Part shown: in pieces, positions 57,469 through 62,028 of the stretch | Layout: each line of letters starts with the position of its first letter | Position numbering within the stretch: the stretch's first letter is position 1 | From: Natrinema sp. CBA1119 | GTDB taxonomy: Archaea > Halobacteriota > Halobacteria > Halobacteriales > Natrialbaceae | Length of the DNA stretch: 64,000 nucleotides | Assembly (NCBI RefSeq): GCF_002572525.1 | Contig: NZ_PDBS01000001.1 | Span: 496,001 to 560,000, forward strand | Reading direction: 5' to 3' | Translations under genes and position numbers: made by a program | The notes under the pieces: model-generated | What the model was told of the DNA's origin: nothing | Seen by the model: the letters and a program-made list of their open reading frames with translations, nothing else | The model's database searches: none

Positions 57469-58310
57469 TTCGTCGTCATCCCGCTGCCAGTAGACAGTCT
57501 GATCAGTGACGCTCGTTTGATATCCGACCTCGAGTTTGGGATGCCACCCGAACTCGTCAGGATCGTAATTGTCGGGATCCTTCATATAGTAGTGCTTGGC
57601 CTCCTTTCCGCTCTCATGGACTCGGACGATCTGTCCGGCCCGCTGATCGTTGCCGACACTGGTCACGTAGTCACCGGGGCGGTCGAGATTGTCTTCGACG
57701 TGTTTCCGATACCCAGAGCGATCAGATTCTAAGAGCGAATGTATCCGGGCGATCGGACCGTCCGCCGCATAGATCGGACCGGACTTCGACCGGAGCAGTC
57801 GAACAGACACTGCTGCGTCGACGATGTTGCTCGTCTTGTAGAACTCGTCGAAGTACCGTCGCGTGATCCCAAACGTCGCCGCTGCTTCTGCGAGTAAGTC
57901 GGAGTAGCGATCGAACTCGATGTTCGATCCCTGACCTGTGCATCGACGTACGGCGCGCCGAGGTCCATGTAGCCATTTACGTCTTTGACGGGACCAGTCC
58001 ATTGGACATCGTCGTCGTACGTCTCGTCTTCACGGACGGAATAGAGCCGGTACAGATACGCCGTCTCGAGATTATAGGACAAATCATCCCACGGAAGGAT
58101 TGACTGGTTGTCATAGTCAAGACAGACCCGCCAGGTCTCGCCACCAGACTCGAAAGTGGTGGACGGCTTTCCGTCATTGGTCCAGTCGTGGTTCTTCCGG
58201 ACGTCCGTAAGTGCGTAGTACGGCTTCAACCCATCCCGAATGAGATGGAAGTGACCGTCAAACTCGTGGCACTGGAACCGCAGGAACTTCCGCGCGCTCA
58301 CAGCGACCAC
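57455..58310 (-). pseudogene. DUF7845-like haloarchaeal mobile-element protein, frameshifted
   Basis: The N-terminal 125 residues from GTG 58310 (FQCHEFDGHFHLIRDGLKPYYALTDV, CLDYDNQSILPWDDL) and the rest from another frame (QGSNIEFDRYSDLLAEAAATFGITRRYFDEFYKTSNI to VYWQRDDDELGREL) fit one protein with a single 1-nt shift near 57930-57940. The end lies in the broken HTH_10 gene. The family is widespread on haloarchaeal integrated elements; I cannot say what it does there. The small genes just upstream overlap each other, typical of such cassettes. Confidence 0.6.
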
Positions 58311-58364
58311 CCAACTGTGAGCCGCTGTATGCGGGTAGCGGAAATTTCAAACCGGATCGCGCGG

Positions 58365-58493
58365 TCATTTTGCACGCCCGATCACCTCCGCTATGTGTCG
58401 GGTGATTGCTCCCGGAGATCGGAGCAGTGCGCCGCAGAGAGCCGAGATAACTTTGGACGAGTGACCGGCTCTCGCGATTTCCTTTCGAGTCAC
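58365..58493 (-). CDS. Possible 42-residue protein of the mobile cassette
   Basis: GTG 58493 overlaps the stop of the zinc-finger gene upstream, and the frame runs to TGA 58365 (VTRKEIARAGHSSKVISALC and onward). It is basic and helical and could be a small helix-turn-helix, but it is too short to recognise. It is the second member of the overlapping cassette between tRNA-Ala and the DUF7845-like gene. Confidence 0.3.
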   Translation of the reverse strand: MTRKEIARAGHSSKVISALCGALLRSPGAITRHIAEVIGRAK

Positions 58494-58660
58494 GGCTGAC
58501 ACCTCCCATCCTCGAGCGCCCGGCAGCGCTTTTTCGGATAGTCGATTTCGCAACCGCAGAACTCACAGATCAGTGGCGAATGATAGTCGCCGGTCAGGCG
58601 ACAAATCACGCAAACCACCTCGATTCCCTCAAAAAACCGCCAACAGGCGTCTGCCTGCAT
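58490..58660 (-). CDS. Small Cys-rich zinc-binding protein
   Basis: 56 residues from ATG 58660. It has two Cys pairs in a zinc-ribbon arrangement, CVIC (C-x2-C) and CEFCGC (C-x2-C-x-C), with further Cys at positions near the ends (DACWRFF, KRCRALEDGRCQP). It starts 124 bp from the 3' end of tRNA-Ala(GGC) and overlaps the next small gene, as in integrated haloarchaeal cassettes. Function unknown. Confidence 0.45.
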   Translation of the reverse strand: MQADACWRFFEGIEVVCVICRLTGDYHSPLICEFCGCEIDYPKKRCRALEDGRCQP

Positions 58661-58783
58661 ACGATTTTCTGTTGAACTCTATTCTGTGAGGGAATAGTCG
58701 TCAGCCCAAAAGTGACAAACCCAGACGTTTTGAAGGTTCTACCTTGCGGTATAGAACCCTCTCTATGGTATTTAATTACGAGT

Positions 58784-58855
58784 GGACTTGCCGGGATTTG
58801 AACCCGGGGCCTCTCCCATGCCAAGGGAGTGATCTACCGCTGATCTACAAGCCCT
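58784..58855 (-). tRNA. tRNA-Ala(GGC)
   Basis: 72 nt without encoded CCA. The acceptor stem GGGCTTG/CAAGTCC contains a G3:U70 pair, the identity element of tRNA-Ala. D arm GATC...GATC; anticodon stem CTCCC/GGGAG with loop TTGGCAT (anticodon GGC); T arm CCGGG-TTCAAAT-CCCGG; discriminator A. The genes 3' of it form a decayed mobile cassette. Confidence 0.95.
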
Positions 58856-58885
58856 CGAGCGCATCTCTCACTTTCCGACGGGAAT

Positions 58886-58893
58886 AGATAAAC
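58886..58893 (-). promoter_or_regulatory. TATA box of tRNA-Ala
   Basis: On the minus strand GTTTATCT, about 31-38 nt upstream of the tRNA 5' end. Confidence 0.45.
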
Positions 58894-59050
58894 CCCTCGA
58901 ATTCCTCGAGTCCCCGTCACAGTCCCGCATTCACACGAATCTAACTCCCCTTCCTCGAGCGAGTCCGAGCCCACTCGAATACCCACCAACGTGCCGAAAC
59001 ACGACGCAGACCGTTTATTCCAGTAGCTATAAGTTACAGTACAAACAGTA

Positions 59051-59155
59051 TCGGAACGGAAGCGACGGTTCCGAACGCGGGGGCATGCGTTAAAATGCCC
59101 CGGGTGTTACAGCACCCGAAGCGTGGCTTCCAAACGGCACGGTTTGCAAGCCATG
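59051..59155 (+). ncRNA. Candidate structured RNA of four consecutive stem-loops
   Basis: Non-coding. TATAAG at 59028-59033 lies about 23 nt before the first stem. Stems in order: TCGGAAC/GTTCCGA (59051-59074); GGGGCAT/ATGCCCC (59080-59101); GGGTG/CACCC (59102-59117); CGTGGCTT with AAGCCATG plus inner CAAAC/GTTTG (59122-59155, 13 pairs with one G-U). The stems follow each other with almost no spacer. It is not a tRNA, RNase P or 7S RNA by form, and no protein frame explains it. Confidence 0.4.
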
Positions 59156-59262
59156 ATTCAATTACTTCTACCGAGACATAAACGCCTCGCACGACGACAC
59201 CAGTACCGCCACGATCGCCGACCCTCGAGTCACGACGCCCGAAACGCGAACGGAGAGCCGCA

Positions 59263-59460
59263 ATGACCGACCGCGACTCGGGCTCGAGCGATCCCGGAGC
59301 CGCCGGTGACGGCGACGACGATCGAGACGAGCGCTCGAGTTTTCCGCCGTGTCCGAAGTGCGACGACGCGGTGATCACGGTCACGACTCGCGGGCCGATG
59401 GAGCATATCGCGGGTCCGTGTGGCTGTCGGCTCAGCCCCGGCCAGGTCCAGTGGCTCTGA
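59263..59460 (+). CDS. Small zinc-ribbon protein (CPxC type)
   Basis: 65 residues. After an acidic, disordered start (SGSSDPGAAGDGDDDRD) come PCPKCDDAVITVTTRG and GPCGCRLSPG, two Cys-x2-Cys-like pairs of a zinc ribbon. Small proteins of this type are abundant in haloarchaea and several are needed for motility or biofilm formation in Haloferax; this one is not assigned. Confidence 0.7.
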   Translation: MTDRDSGSSDPGAAGDGDDDRDERSSFPPCPKCDDAVITVTTRGPMEHIAGPCGCRLSPGQVQWL

Positions 59461-59519
59461 TACGGACTGGTGTACCGATTTCCCAGAGAACCGCAGAGAC
59501 GGGACTGTCCGAAACCACG

Positions 59520-59774
59520 ACGAAAGCCCCTGCTGGCTCCGGTCGAGGGACTTGCTGCGCGCTCCCGTCGGTCGCGTGCTTGCGTCGTCCGTCTTCCCGG
59601 AGCCAGCAGCCCCTTTCAGTCCCACCCGCGGTGGCATCCCGGTCAGCCGATACAGGTGGGACTGAAAGGGGCTGTCGCGGTCGATCCGTCCCGGACGACG
59701 CAAGCACCGGAGCGACCGATGGGAGCGAGGAGCGAAGCGAGGCCCGGACGGTCGAGCGCGGCAGGGGCTTTCGT
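59520..59774. repeat. 255-bp element with nested inverted repeats
   Basis: Arms: 59520-59533 with 59761-59774 (14 bp perfect); 59561-59590 with 59693-59726 (15 bp perfect, then a 4-nt interruption and 14 of 15 further pairs); 59607-59626 with 59655-59674 (20 bp perfect, loop 28 nt). An alternative 13-bp pairing joins 59530-59542 with 59598-59610. Non-coding, between the zinc-ribbon and methyltransferase genes. It looks like a MITE-like or structured RNA element; no terminal duplication was seen. Confidence 0.75.
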
Positions 59775-59873
59775 GATGTTCGTAGTGGGTAGAGGGTACT
59801 CACAGGAGGATCTAAATACGAATCCTCGAGAGGTTACGAACATTTTTTGCGGGTTCGTCGACGAAACCCGACG

Positions 59874-60575
59874 ATGGCCGGGGATCAAGGTCGCGATCGA
59901 ACTCACAGTCACGACGACGAGCGCACCCGCCGCGCCGACGTGCGGGACACCTACGACCGGATCGCGACCCACTTCGCGTCCACGCGGGAGTACGCCTGGC
60001 CCGAAGTCGAGGCCTTCGTCGACGCCCACGCGACCGACCGCGCCGGCGTCGGACTCGATCTCGGCTGCGGCAACTGTCGCCACGCCGAGCTCCTCGAGCC
60101 CCGCCTCGAGACGGTCATCGGCCTCGACGTCAGCCGCGGCTTGCTCGAGACGGGCCGGGAGCGCGCGCTCGAGCGCAACTTCGACGTCGAGTTGGTTCAG
60201 GGGGACGCGTCGACACTCCCGCTGGCCGACGACAGCATCGATATCGCGATCTACGTTGCGACACTGCACCACCTGCCGACGCGGGCGGCCCGCCGGGCGA
60301 GTCTGGACGACCTCGCGCGGGTACTCGCCCCCGACGGCCGCGCCTTGGTCAGCGCGTGGTCGACCGCCCACGACCGGTTCGAGGAAACCGAGGGGTTCGA
60401 TACGACGGTCGAGTGGACTCTCCCCGACGGCGAGGCGGTCGACCGATTCTACCATATCTACGCCCCTGACGAATTCGAGACCGATCTCATCGATAGCGAC
60501 CTCGAGGTACTCGAGTGGGAACTCTCGAGCGGGAACTGTTATGCGACGGTCGCGGGCACTGGGACGACCGAATAG
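59874..60575 (+). CDS. Trm9/ABH8-like SAM-dependent methyltransferase
   Basis: 233 residues from ATG 59874. VRDTYDRIATHFASTREYAWPEVEAFV is the N-terminal block of Trm9/ABH8-type tRNA methyltransferases, followed by motif I GLDLGCGNCRHAELL, VIGLDVSRGLLE, ELVQGDASTLPLADDSIDIAIYVATLHHL, and RVLAPDGRALVSAWS. In eukaryotes this family methylates wobble uridine side chains. A general small-molecule methyltransferase is possible, but the N-terminal motif points to RNA. The tRNA-Gly gene follows 108 bp downstream. Confidence 0.82.
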   Translation: MAGDQGRDRTHSHDDERTRRADVRDTYDRIATHFASTREYAWPEVEAFVDAHATDRAGVGLDLGCGNCRHAELLEPRLETVIGLDVSRGLLETGRERALERNFDVELVQGDASTLPLADDSIDIAIYVATLHHLPTRAARRASLDDLARVLAPDGRALVSAWSTAHDRFEETEGFDTTVEWTLPDGEAVDRFYHIYAPDEFETDLIDSDLEVLEWELSSGNCYATVAGTGTTE

Positions 60576-60652
60576 TCCCGTTTCGAAGGTGGCTAATTCG
60601 TCCCCACCGGCGACGTTGATCGCCAGCGGGCAGCCACGAGGAAAAGGAAGAG

Positions 60653-60660
60653 CCTTAAAC
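60653..60660 (+). promoter_or_regulatory. TATA box of tRNA-Gly
   Basis: CCTTAAAC about 24-31 nt upstream of the tRNA 5' end at 60684. Confidence 0.5.
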
Positions 60661-60683
60661 GTGGAACGAAAATCCGAGAATGC

Positions 60684-60754
60684 GCGCGGATGGTCTAGTG
60701 GTAGGACCTGAGCCTTCCAAGCTCATGGCCCGGGTTCAAATCCCGGTCCGCGCA
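60684..60754 (+). tRNA. tRNA-Gly(TCC)
   Basis: 71 nt, no encoded CCA. Acceptor stem GCGCGGA/TCCGCGC, anticodon stem TGAGC/GCTCA with loop CTTCCAA (anticodon TCC), T arm CGGG-TTCAAAT-CCCG, discriminator A. The last 24 nt are duplicated at 60856-60879. Confidence 0.95.
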
Positions 60755-60879
60755 TTGCTGTCGCAAGCAAATTCGCGAGCGACAGCAATCGTACGAGGGA
60801 TTTGAAGCACGCGAGTCGCAGCGTCCGAACGAAGTGAGGACGACCGTCTCGCAGTCGGGTTCAAATCCCGGTCCGCGCA
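60755..60879 (+). repeat. tRNA-Gly 3'-end direct repeat with intervening hairpin (attachment-site scar)
   Basis: The 24 nt at 60731-60754 (CGGGTTCAAATCCCGGTCCG followed by CGCA) recur exactly at 60856-60879, 125 bp apart. Between them, 10-bp arms TTGCTGTCGC (60755-60764) and GCGACAGCAA (60779-60788) form a hairpin. This is how a tRNA-targeted integrative element leaves attL/attR, here with almost nothing left inside. Confidence 0.7.
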
Positions 60880-61071
60880 CTCCTCAGCCGTTCGCTCGTT
60901 GGTTTTCCGGCTTTCCAGCAATGACCCGACCATGCCATTCGAAGCTTACAACGTGGGTTGGCGTATCGCACCCCGGAGCCGTCCCAGAGATGTAAAAAAT
61001 TTCAGTCATACTAGAGGTGTAGTCAGCAGTTCCCCGGTTTTCGCGGAATCGGAGGTAGGGGCTTTTGCAGG

Positions 61072-61320
61072 ATGAACGTGACAAGGTCGATGGAGTCATT
61101 GTGGTTCCGGAGCACGGAGAGTCATCAGGCCATCGATGTCGTCGACATGTTCGATCCGGTTACGAAGTGGAACGCCCGGCTTAACGAGCCGAACATCGTC
61201 CACGAATCGGTCCGGAAGGCCTTCAAAACGGCGGAGTACGAGAAGCCCGGCGCGCCCCATCTCGAACTGCCGGAAGACCACCACGTTTGGCACCGGTCAA
61301 CTCACATTGGAGCTGTCTGA
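61072..61320 (+). pseudogene. Fragment of acetolactate synthase-like thiamine-diphosphate enzyme
   Basis: 82 residues readable. ESHQAIDVVDMFDPVTKWNARLNEPNIVHESVRKAFKTAEYEKPGAPHLELPED is the end of the N-terminal (PYR) domain and start of the linker of acetolactate synthase/IlvB-type enzymes. The rest of the roughly 550-residue enzyme is absent on both sides, so it is a remnant. It follows the attachment-site scar and precedes the HTH_10 gene. Confidence 0.65.
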
Positions 61321-61386
61321 AACTACTCTTCGATGTGATTTTAACGACCACGGTAGGTGTCTATCGACGTACTCGTGATGGAGGTG

Positions 61387-62028
61387 TTACACTTCCATAT
61401 GTTCATTTATAAACCAGTGAATGATGTGGCCCTCGGCACGATGGAGAACATCGCTACACGTGGCATTTGCGATTCCGAGAGTGTCAGCTACGTCGCCTAA
61501 CGTCGATTCCCGTGGCACCTGATAATATCCCTCTTCGGCGGCCGTTGCCAACACCTCTTGCTGGCGGTCAGTTAGCAATCGATCCGCCTGACTCGTATCA
61601 ATATCACGAATGTGTTCAATAGTGAATCCGATTCCGAGATCATCAAGGTGTGTACGGAGGCTCGAAAGGCGGTCGTTCGATGTAGTCACGTTCCACGTGG
61701 CCTGCCCGTTCTGGATGTCGAACGGCATCTTGAGCGGAACGCCAGCTCGCCAGATCGGGAGGAGTGGGAGGGGGTTCGACGTCTGTATCTGGAGGAGCGC
61801 TTCGTCGTCGTGTTTCCAGAGCAGTTCGAGGCTATCGATGTCATCGCGGGCCTGAATGTCGGTAATGATCGGCAGCGGATCGGTGGCGGTAAGCCGGATG
61901 AGTCCGATGCCGGTGTCTTTTCCGACGATACTTGTGACAACTTGGAACACTAACTCCGGATGGGTAGCCGAGAGATCTCCAATCCAGATGTGCTCTGGGA
62001 GATCGATCGTGAGTTTCGCGTGTGGCAT
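61387..62028 (-). CDS. HTH_10 (Bat-type) transcriptional regulator
   Basis: 213 residues from ATG 62028. The C-terminal DNA-binding domain is LLTDRQQEVLATAAEEGYYQVPRESTLGDVADTLGIANATCSDVLHRAEGHII, the bacterio-opsin-activator helix-turn-helix (HTH_10). The N-terminal 150 residues form an alpha/beta sensor domain (AKLTIDLPEHIWIGDL, VVTSIVGKDTGIGLIRL). It is divergent from the RND transporter gene with 276 bp between starts, so it probably regulates that transporter. The inducer is unknown. Confidence 0.82.
   Translation of the reverse strand: MPHAKLTIDLPEHIWIGDLSATHPELVFQVVTSIVGKDTGIGLIRLTATDPLPIITDIQARDDIDSLELLWKHDDEALLQIQTSNPLPLLPIWRAGVPLKMPFDIQNGQATWNVTTSNDRLSSLRTHLDDLGIGFTIEHIRDIDTSQADRLLTDRQQEVLATAAEEGYYQVPRESTLGDVADTLGIANATCSDVLHRAEGHIIHWFINEHMEV

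Follow-up and report, generated by a model that had tools for sequence, protein, structure and literature searches.

At positions 59520-59774 of the window (the whole stretch of 64,000 nucleotides of Natrinema sp. CBA1119 that was analysed), almost the entire length of a 255-bp sequence forms a single imperfect palindrome, as judged from folding and arm pairs. The question raised by this locus is what kind of element such a palindrome represents and how it came to lie between two genes. The earlier note on this DNA, made from the letters alone, had described a nested inverted-repeat element and had proposed a non-autonomous transposon, a structured RNA, or a regulator of the flanking genes.

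Anatomy of the Palindrome

The three arm pairs named in the earlier note are all recovered by an arm-pair search of the window. These are a perfect 14-bp pair (59520-59533/59761-59774), a perfect 20-bp pair (59607-59626/59655-59674), and a 25-nt pair with 88% match that contains the 15-bp arms (59567-59591/59692-59716); additional pairs are found at 59522-59542/59597-59617 and 59554-59575/59712-59733. The judgement that the structure is too regular for chance is borne out, as, with up to 3 mismatches allowed, the 20-mer occurs in the 64 kb only as these two arms (0.00 expected by shuffling), and the RNA fold of 59517-59790 reaches -185.5 kcal/mol with a z-score of -11.8 (-10.0 for the opposite strand), with 0 of 200 shuffles folding as well. 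Likewise, the statement that no coding frame is present agrees with a codon-score gene caller, which places no gene in 59461-59873, its start positions being approximate and the 65-aa ORF at 59263-59460 having been missed by it. The parsing as a nested element has to be given up, real as the arms are: the 255-bp palindrome is two head-to-head units of about 120 bp with a 28-bp centre between them. Comparison with relatives reveals that the palindrome is near-complete because two copies of one unit point away from each other; the 15-bp arms correspond to a conserved inner motif, GGACGACGCAAGCAC, which is present once per unit and is not a nested arm. The features of the locus are listed below, where R1 denotes a covariance model of the unit and H2 its hairpin cassette.

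59263-59460, + strand: upstream flanking ORF of 65 amino acids with CPKC...CGC cysteines, no Pfam family
59522-59627, - strand: unit 1, consisting of core GGGTGGGACTGAAAGGGGC, cassette H2a and tail GGGGCTTTC; R1 match G000:C1:555522-555627:-, 101 bits
59522-59530, - strand: conserved 3' tail of unit 1 (GGGGCTTTC on the - strand), 61 bp past the stop codon of ORF 59263-59460
59531-59608, - strand: hairpin cassette H2a of unit 1, 78 nt, with arms TGCTGGCTCC...GGAGCCAGCA and inner motif GACGACGCAAGCAC / GCGCAGCAAG
59609-59627, - strand: conserved 5' core of unit 1, GGGTGGGACTGAAAGGGGC
59627-59654, no strand: 28-bp centre between the heads, CGCGGTGGCATCCCGGTCAGCCGATACA; its base 1 is also base 1 of the unit 1 core on the - strand
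59655-59772, + strand: unit 2; R1 match G000:C1:555654-555772:+, 102 bits
59655-59672, + strand: conserved 5' core of unit 2, GGTGGGACTGAAAGGGGC
59673-59763, + strand: hairpin cassette H2b of unit 2, 91 nt, with arms TGTCGCGGTCGATCC...GGTCGAGCGCGGCA and inner motif GACGACGCAAGCACCG / GAGGAGCGAAGCGAGG
59764-59772, + strand: conserved 3' tail of unit 2, GGGGCTTTC, 101 bp 5' of the start codon at 59874, a position typical of the family
59843-59848, + strand: T-run 26-31 bp 5' of the ATG at 59874, matching the T-rich box of other units' downstream genes
59874-60575, + strand: downstream flanking gene, class I methyltransferase (PF08241)

The 65-aa ORF is recognisable at the same place in several congeners. 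A second multicopy structured sequence (GGGGCATGCGTTAAAATGCCCC, GGGTGTTACAGCACCC, ...ATAAACG...) is located at 59076-59195 of the window; it has 7 matches in the own genome, many in congeners and at least 9 in genome G163, and is without an Rfam match at E≤1.

Architecture of the Unit

The units measure about 100-130 nt and are composed of the head GGGTGGGACTGAAAGGGGC, the variable hairpin H2, and GGGGCTTTC. Among the 183-184 distinct units with enough flank, GGGTGGGACTGAAAGGGGC is conserved ahead of the cassette, GGGGCTTTC and, weakly, NNGNTGTT after it; conservation fades 5' of the core and past about +14. The H2 cassette is mostly 75-105 nt long. In class B, to which both window units belong, the basal stem is free to vary, but hardly any variation is seen across families in the inner motifs GCAAGCAC and GCAGCGAG. 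Class A cassettes, found at the Halorussus loci L112, L142, and L154 and in the class-A-rich genomes of genus g27, possess a different inner fold within the same core/tail frame. At loci L220, L231, L235, and L094, cassettes with runs of small perfect hairpins are seen, e.g., GAGGGACCAGCGGTCCCTC; the same mini-hairpin is common to H2 cassettes of G164 and of Haloarcula rara.

The head-to-head arrangement of the window is a recurrent one. A head-to-head partner within 26-37 bp is found for 61 of 183 units, compared with 1 of 183 in the shuffled control, and the spacing recurs, the window's 28-bp centre included; tandem arrangement of units (0/183) and tail-to-tail arrangement (0/182) were not observed. 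Class A units of G074 (L348-L356) can be flanked by tandem arrays of 26-28-bp repeats upstream and 53-57-bp repeats downstream, the latter containing the right arm and tail of the unit. Such arrays are rare, with 4 upstream and 3 downstream cases among the 127 named units with enough flank.

Occurrence in Haloarchaea

Copies in related genomes, the absence of which, together with that of a transcript, the earlier note had set against the element, are plentiful. R1 detects 10 units in the own genome, up to 37 in others, and at least one in 49 of the 61 genomes of the family. Of the 146 genomes sampled from the order, 66 (about 45%) contain the exact pattern, as do 25 of 56 genera, with up to 51 copies per genome, while the reversed pattern gave 0 matches in the 146 genomes. 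In a wider scan of genome contigs at least 120 stretches matched, and among the matches listed all derive from Halobacteria; a match is further contained in 25 plasmid records, all of them haloarchaeal, and 2 of the 25 lie under an annotated hypothetical protein. Two scans of viral contigs with exact patterns returned 0 matches, on which ground a virus origin is set aside. Searches against Rfam left the units unmatched, both in the window region 58000-61500 (E≤1) and in 8 loci that carry class A units (E≤0.5). A literature search with literal motifs and repeat terms, most subscription papers being out of its scope, yielded no description of the unit. The repeat is abundant in a major archaeal class and apparently undescribed.

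Turnover at Orthologous Sites

The neighbourhood of tRNA-Ala, methyltransferase, and tRNA-Gly genes has a match in 29 of 29 genomes of the genus, own genome included, which allows the window site to be followed through the congeners. In the own genome H2a is on the left and a different cassette, H2b, on the right. The element of G164 carries H2a on the right and has an intact short left arm; in G163 a relative of H2a is on the right and the centre is inverted; G146 retains a remnant. In most of the 28 congeners only the flanks are present, and the other fully read loci are without both units.

At seven more sites of the own genome (L015, L016, L022, L023, L025, L027, and L030) congeners often have a unit at the same place, with H2 arms frequently replaced and pairing intact. 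At L023, the H2 of the own genome and of G158 is wholly unlike that of the closer relative G164. H2 deletions in G164 and G158 leave core scars, and small hairpins amounting to about 100 bp have been added to one cassette of G164. In G074 (genus g27, probably Halorussus by its resemblance) a 121-bp unit is identical at two sites with unrelated upstream flanks, the shared block extending from -7 to +70. Copying, deletion, and cassette replacement with kept pairing are directly demonstrated by these comparisons.

It is most probable, at roughly 0.6, that the window contains head-to-head copies of a dispersed non-coding haloarchaeal repeat, MITE/BOX/REPIN-like in kind, which would be spread non-autonomously by a putative trans-acting enzyme. 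The non-autonomous transposon that the earlier note had envisaged is supported in part: the dispersal, the presence or absence at orthologous sites, and the identical unit at two unrelated sites speak for it; missing are a parent transposase, no transposase or recombinase linked to the unit having been found near units or at TnpB ends with profiles for Y1 and TnpB families, and a target-site duplication, none of which could be established at the orthologous sites compared. The empty-site alleles it had recommended looking for are represented by presence and absence at orthologous sites, but not by a precise filled/empty pair in close relatives, where orthologous empty sites are either too diverged or H2 deletions.

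Pairing of the Hairpin Cassette

The foremost alternative, though a doubtful one, is a structured-RNA family, in which the unit strand would be transcribed and the folded RNA would act as a small RNA or read-through element, with selection keeping the pairs and the inner motifs. Covariation of H2 is indeed strong. In an alignment-free test on the first nine pairs, Watson-Crick pairing amounts to 91.8% in 185 units, against 46.4% with shuffled partners and a maximum of 50.0% in 1000 shuffles. RNAalifold assigns 32 consensus pairs to 39 class B units, 22 of them with changes on both sides; the underlying alignment A1 comprises the 2 window units and 37 units out of 51 that passed a motif/length filter from 144. 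Also in line with such a family are the nearly invariant inner H2 motifs across families and the fact that the same core can enclose H2 of either type, class A or class B.

The ten basal pairs are informative about the strand. Among 158 distinct arm pairs, of which 151 were used, G-U outnumbers A-C by 38 to 14 (p = 0.0012), which indicates that the written unit strand is the one that folds; in the same tally GG outnumbers CC by 25 to 2, so that strand composition contributes to the G-U count and caution is advised. A tally over 12 pairs (G-U 75, A-C 12) was set aside, since a fixed G/T feature seems to come in with positions 11-12, and only tallies of up to 10 pairs are quoted. The G-U excess suggests a stage, be it RNA or single-stranded DNA, at which the unit strand is folded by itself. 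The conserved motifs GCAAGCAC and GCAGCGAG together with the G-U excess would also fit an RNA under selection.

A different impression is given by the intact-unit orthologs, which were compared in 4 of the 5 congeners searched. In 17 comparisons of 10 pairs each, 107 pairs are the same, 36 have double, pair-preserving changes, 6 have one-sided changes, and 21 are unpaired in one of the two. The 36 both-side changes against 6 one-sided ones are unlike stepwise compensation through G-U; the double changes look copied. The structured RNA of the earlier note, hence, has covariation and a preferred strand on its side, but not the expected course of substitution. The lack of an Rfam match and the position of promoter boxes downstream of the unit, which places it outside the 5' UTR of the downstream genes, likewise argue against it.

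Genomic Context and Promoter Distance

Even less probable is that the unit regulates or insulates the downstream gene from a place upstream of its promoter, being held there at a fixed distance and in a fixed orientation. Units lie between genes, with an overlap of a called gene in 7 of 139, and in 54 out of 106 co-oriented cases the tail end is located 80-109 bp 5' of the start codon, where 11.0 were expected and the maximum of 20,000 simulations was 26; in a 30-genome subset the ratio is 12 of 19. The + unit of the window, which is outside that count, fits this peak with 101 bp to the methyltransferase start. Only 2 of 12 tails do so in the G074/G058 set, where arrays often intervene and the last array tail lies 64-157 bp 5' of the start. 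The downstream gene is co-oriented for 75 of 115 units (p = 0.0014; 17 edge and 7 overlapping units of the 139 were left out), a bias not significant in the 30-genome (19/31) and G074/G058 (13/18) sets. Inspection by eye of L016 in G168 revealed a spacer of the same length and altered sequence between the tail and a conserved promoter, as would befit a regulatory element.

Ahead of the genes that follow units, T is enriched in a box at -25 to -29 and A in a stretch from -33 to -35, which puts the promoter downstream of the unit. Native gaps without units are short (median 93 bp between same-strand and 159 bp between divergent genes). Since native gaps are so compact, the margin of about 100 bp between tail and start may merely be the clearance needed by a promoter. 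The set distance 5' of promoters would suit the earlier note's regulator of flanking genes, but compact intergenic gaps may explain it. Promoter-targeted insertion need not be invoked, native gaps being as short as the observed margin. A transcription terminator is rejected, as there is no enrichment between convergent genes (13 of the 115 classified), and so is a 5' UTR riboswitch, the unit being separated from the gene by the promoter boxes.

Units have mostly unrelated neighbours (252 flanking proteins form 199 clusters), which again disfavours a regulatory role. At one site, nucS/endA, units of Natrinema, Haloarcula, and a further lineage are situated between the same pair of genes; the endA assignment is clear, and the nucS label is weak (NucS_N, 21.8 bits, below cut-off). 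This sharing, together with same-site persistence across species, would also fit a functional element. Deep conservation at the nucS/endA site is rejected in view of the presence of a unit upstream of endA in only 4 of 60 genomes, plus 1 relic. An H2-less relic with an unsplit palindrome lies 5' of a tRNA-splicing endonuclease gene at G000:C1:1738917-1738935 (L213, L249); other genera have full units in the same orientation at this site.

Proposed Mode of Spread

According to the preferred reading of a dispersed, non-autonomously spread repeat, a fixed 5' core and a fixed 3' tail would surround an exchangeable hairpin cassette, and the units would be spread by an enzyme acting in trans, for which the fold of the strand would count for more than its sequence. 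Units would persist where the promoter is left intact. The arms of the cassette would stay complementary mainly via copying at the DNA level, i.e., by template switching between arms or by cassette exchange between copies, and effects on neighbouring genes, such as a transcription boundary or an mRNA hairpin, would be secondary.

Scattered between the genes of salt-loving archaea, the hairpin of the unit retains its pairing while its letters keep turning over. As the hairpin is replaced within a site and its pairing is retained, a general question can be put to a direct test, namely whether covariation in a repeat family reflects RNA function or is a by-product of palindromic DNA copying. For annotation, such blocks are to be expected upstream of promoters.

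Comparison with Known Repeat Elements

The general features of MITEs are all found in the unit, which is short, non-coding, multicopy, and intergenic and has inverted ends. REP, BIME, and REPIN sequences are palindromes of 20-40 nt with a GTAG/CGTC-type tag, mobilized by RAYT (Y1) transposases. The units resemble them as intergenic hairpins that form head-to-head doublets at set spacing; they differ in their length of about 120 nt and in having the head GGGTGGGACTGAAAGGGGC instead of the tag. A RAYT/Y1 partner is rejected, as the Y1 transposase family (PF01797; present in 78 of 146 genomes) was not detected in four (G008, G041, G104, and G136) of the nine genomes with at least 14 pattern copies, the other five being G002, G027, G074, G082, and G102. 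For a CRISPR repeat or Cas6 substrate the situation is similar: Cas6 (TIGR01877) was not found in the own genome and was matched in only 3 of the 9 high-copy genomes.

BOX elements are modular. According to the available part of a MITE review (PMC10969869), BOX, ERIC, and Correia are intergenic palindromic elements which can form stem-loops, and Correia elements are described as inverting. With these the unit shares the modular build, the stem-loop-forming intergenic palindromes, and the frequent location near gene starts; unlike them, it is archaeal, its H2 letters vary freely with pairs kept, and no parent transposon is known.

In the available part of PMC3119063, SMR-A of Haloquadratum walsbyi is described as a non-coding element of about 110 bp with inverted ends and tens of copies. 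A lack of target duplication is a further trait of SMR-A. The units share its size, its haloarchaeal host range, these properties, and the lack of a known mobilizer. They differ from it in being heterogeneous, in not being found in palindromes of TnpB elements, and in their fixed core and tail around a replaced hairpin. That the unit is an SMR-A which entered a near-terminal palindrome of a PATE or IS605-type transposon is very improbable. The units do come close to that description in size, copy number, inverted ends, and palindrome setting, and core and tail could represent a palindrome GAAAGGGGCTTTC split by H2. But the unsplit palindrome GGGACTGAAAGGGGCTTTC is truly present in only 1 of 146 genomes, and the core at ≤3 mismatches is absent from 30 of 30 TnpB loci, which were those available for examination among 51 TnpB matches of four genomes; a partial match with 4 mismatches occurs in two of the loci, and one degraded unit lies near a TnpB gene. 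Moreover, SMR types are, in the same part of PMC3119063, commonly >95% identical within a type, which the units are not. For the comparison with known relatives, the available parts of PMC12306157, PMC3733652, and PMC3402447 were also drawn upon.

There remains the comparison with integrons. No gene-cassette array was noticed beside the units, in which they differ from integron attC sites. Integron attC sites have short conserved ends around a palindrome that is recognised by its structure, and the units may be alike in this. It may be speculated, with considerable reserve, that the units belong to a new class of haloarchaeal element, selfish or regulatory, that is read by its structure and in which fixed head and tail would accept interchangeable self-complementary cassettes of at least two fold classes, swapped at the resident site with pairing kept; copies would pair up head to head with a defined spacing and take their place about 50-80 bp 5' of core promoters, without a Y1 transposase, by means of an enzyme that would recognise the folded single strand as integron integrases do.
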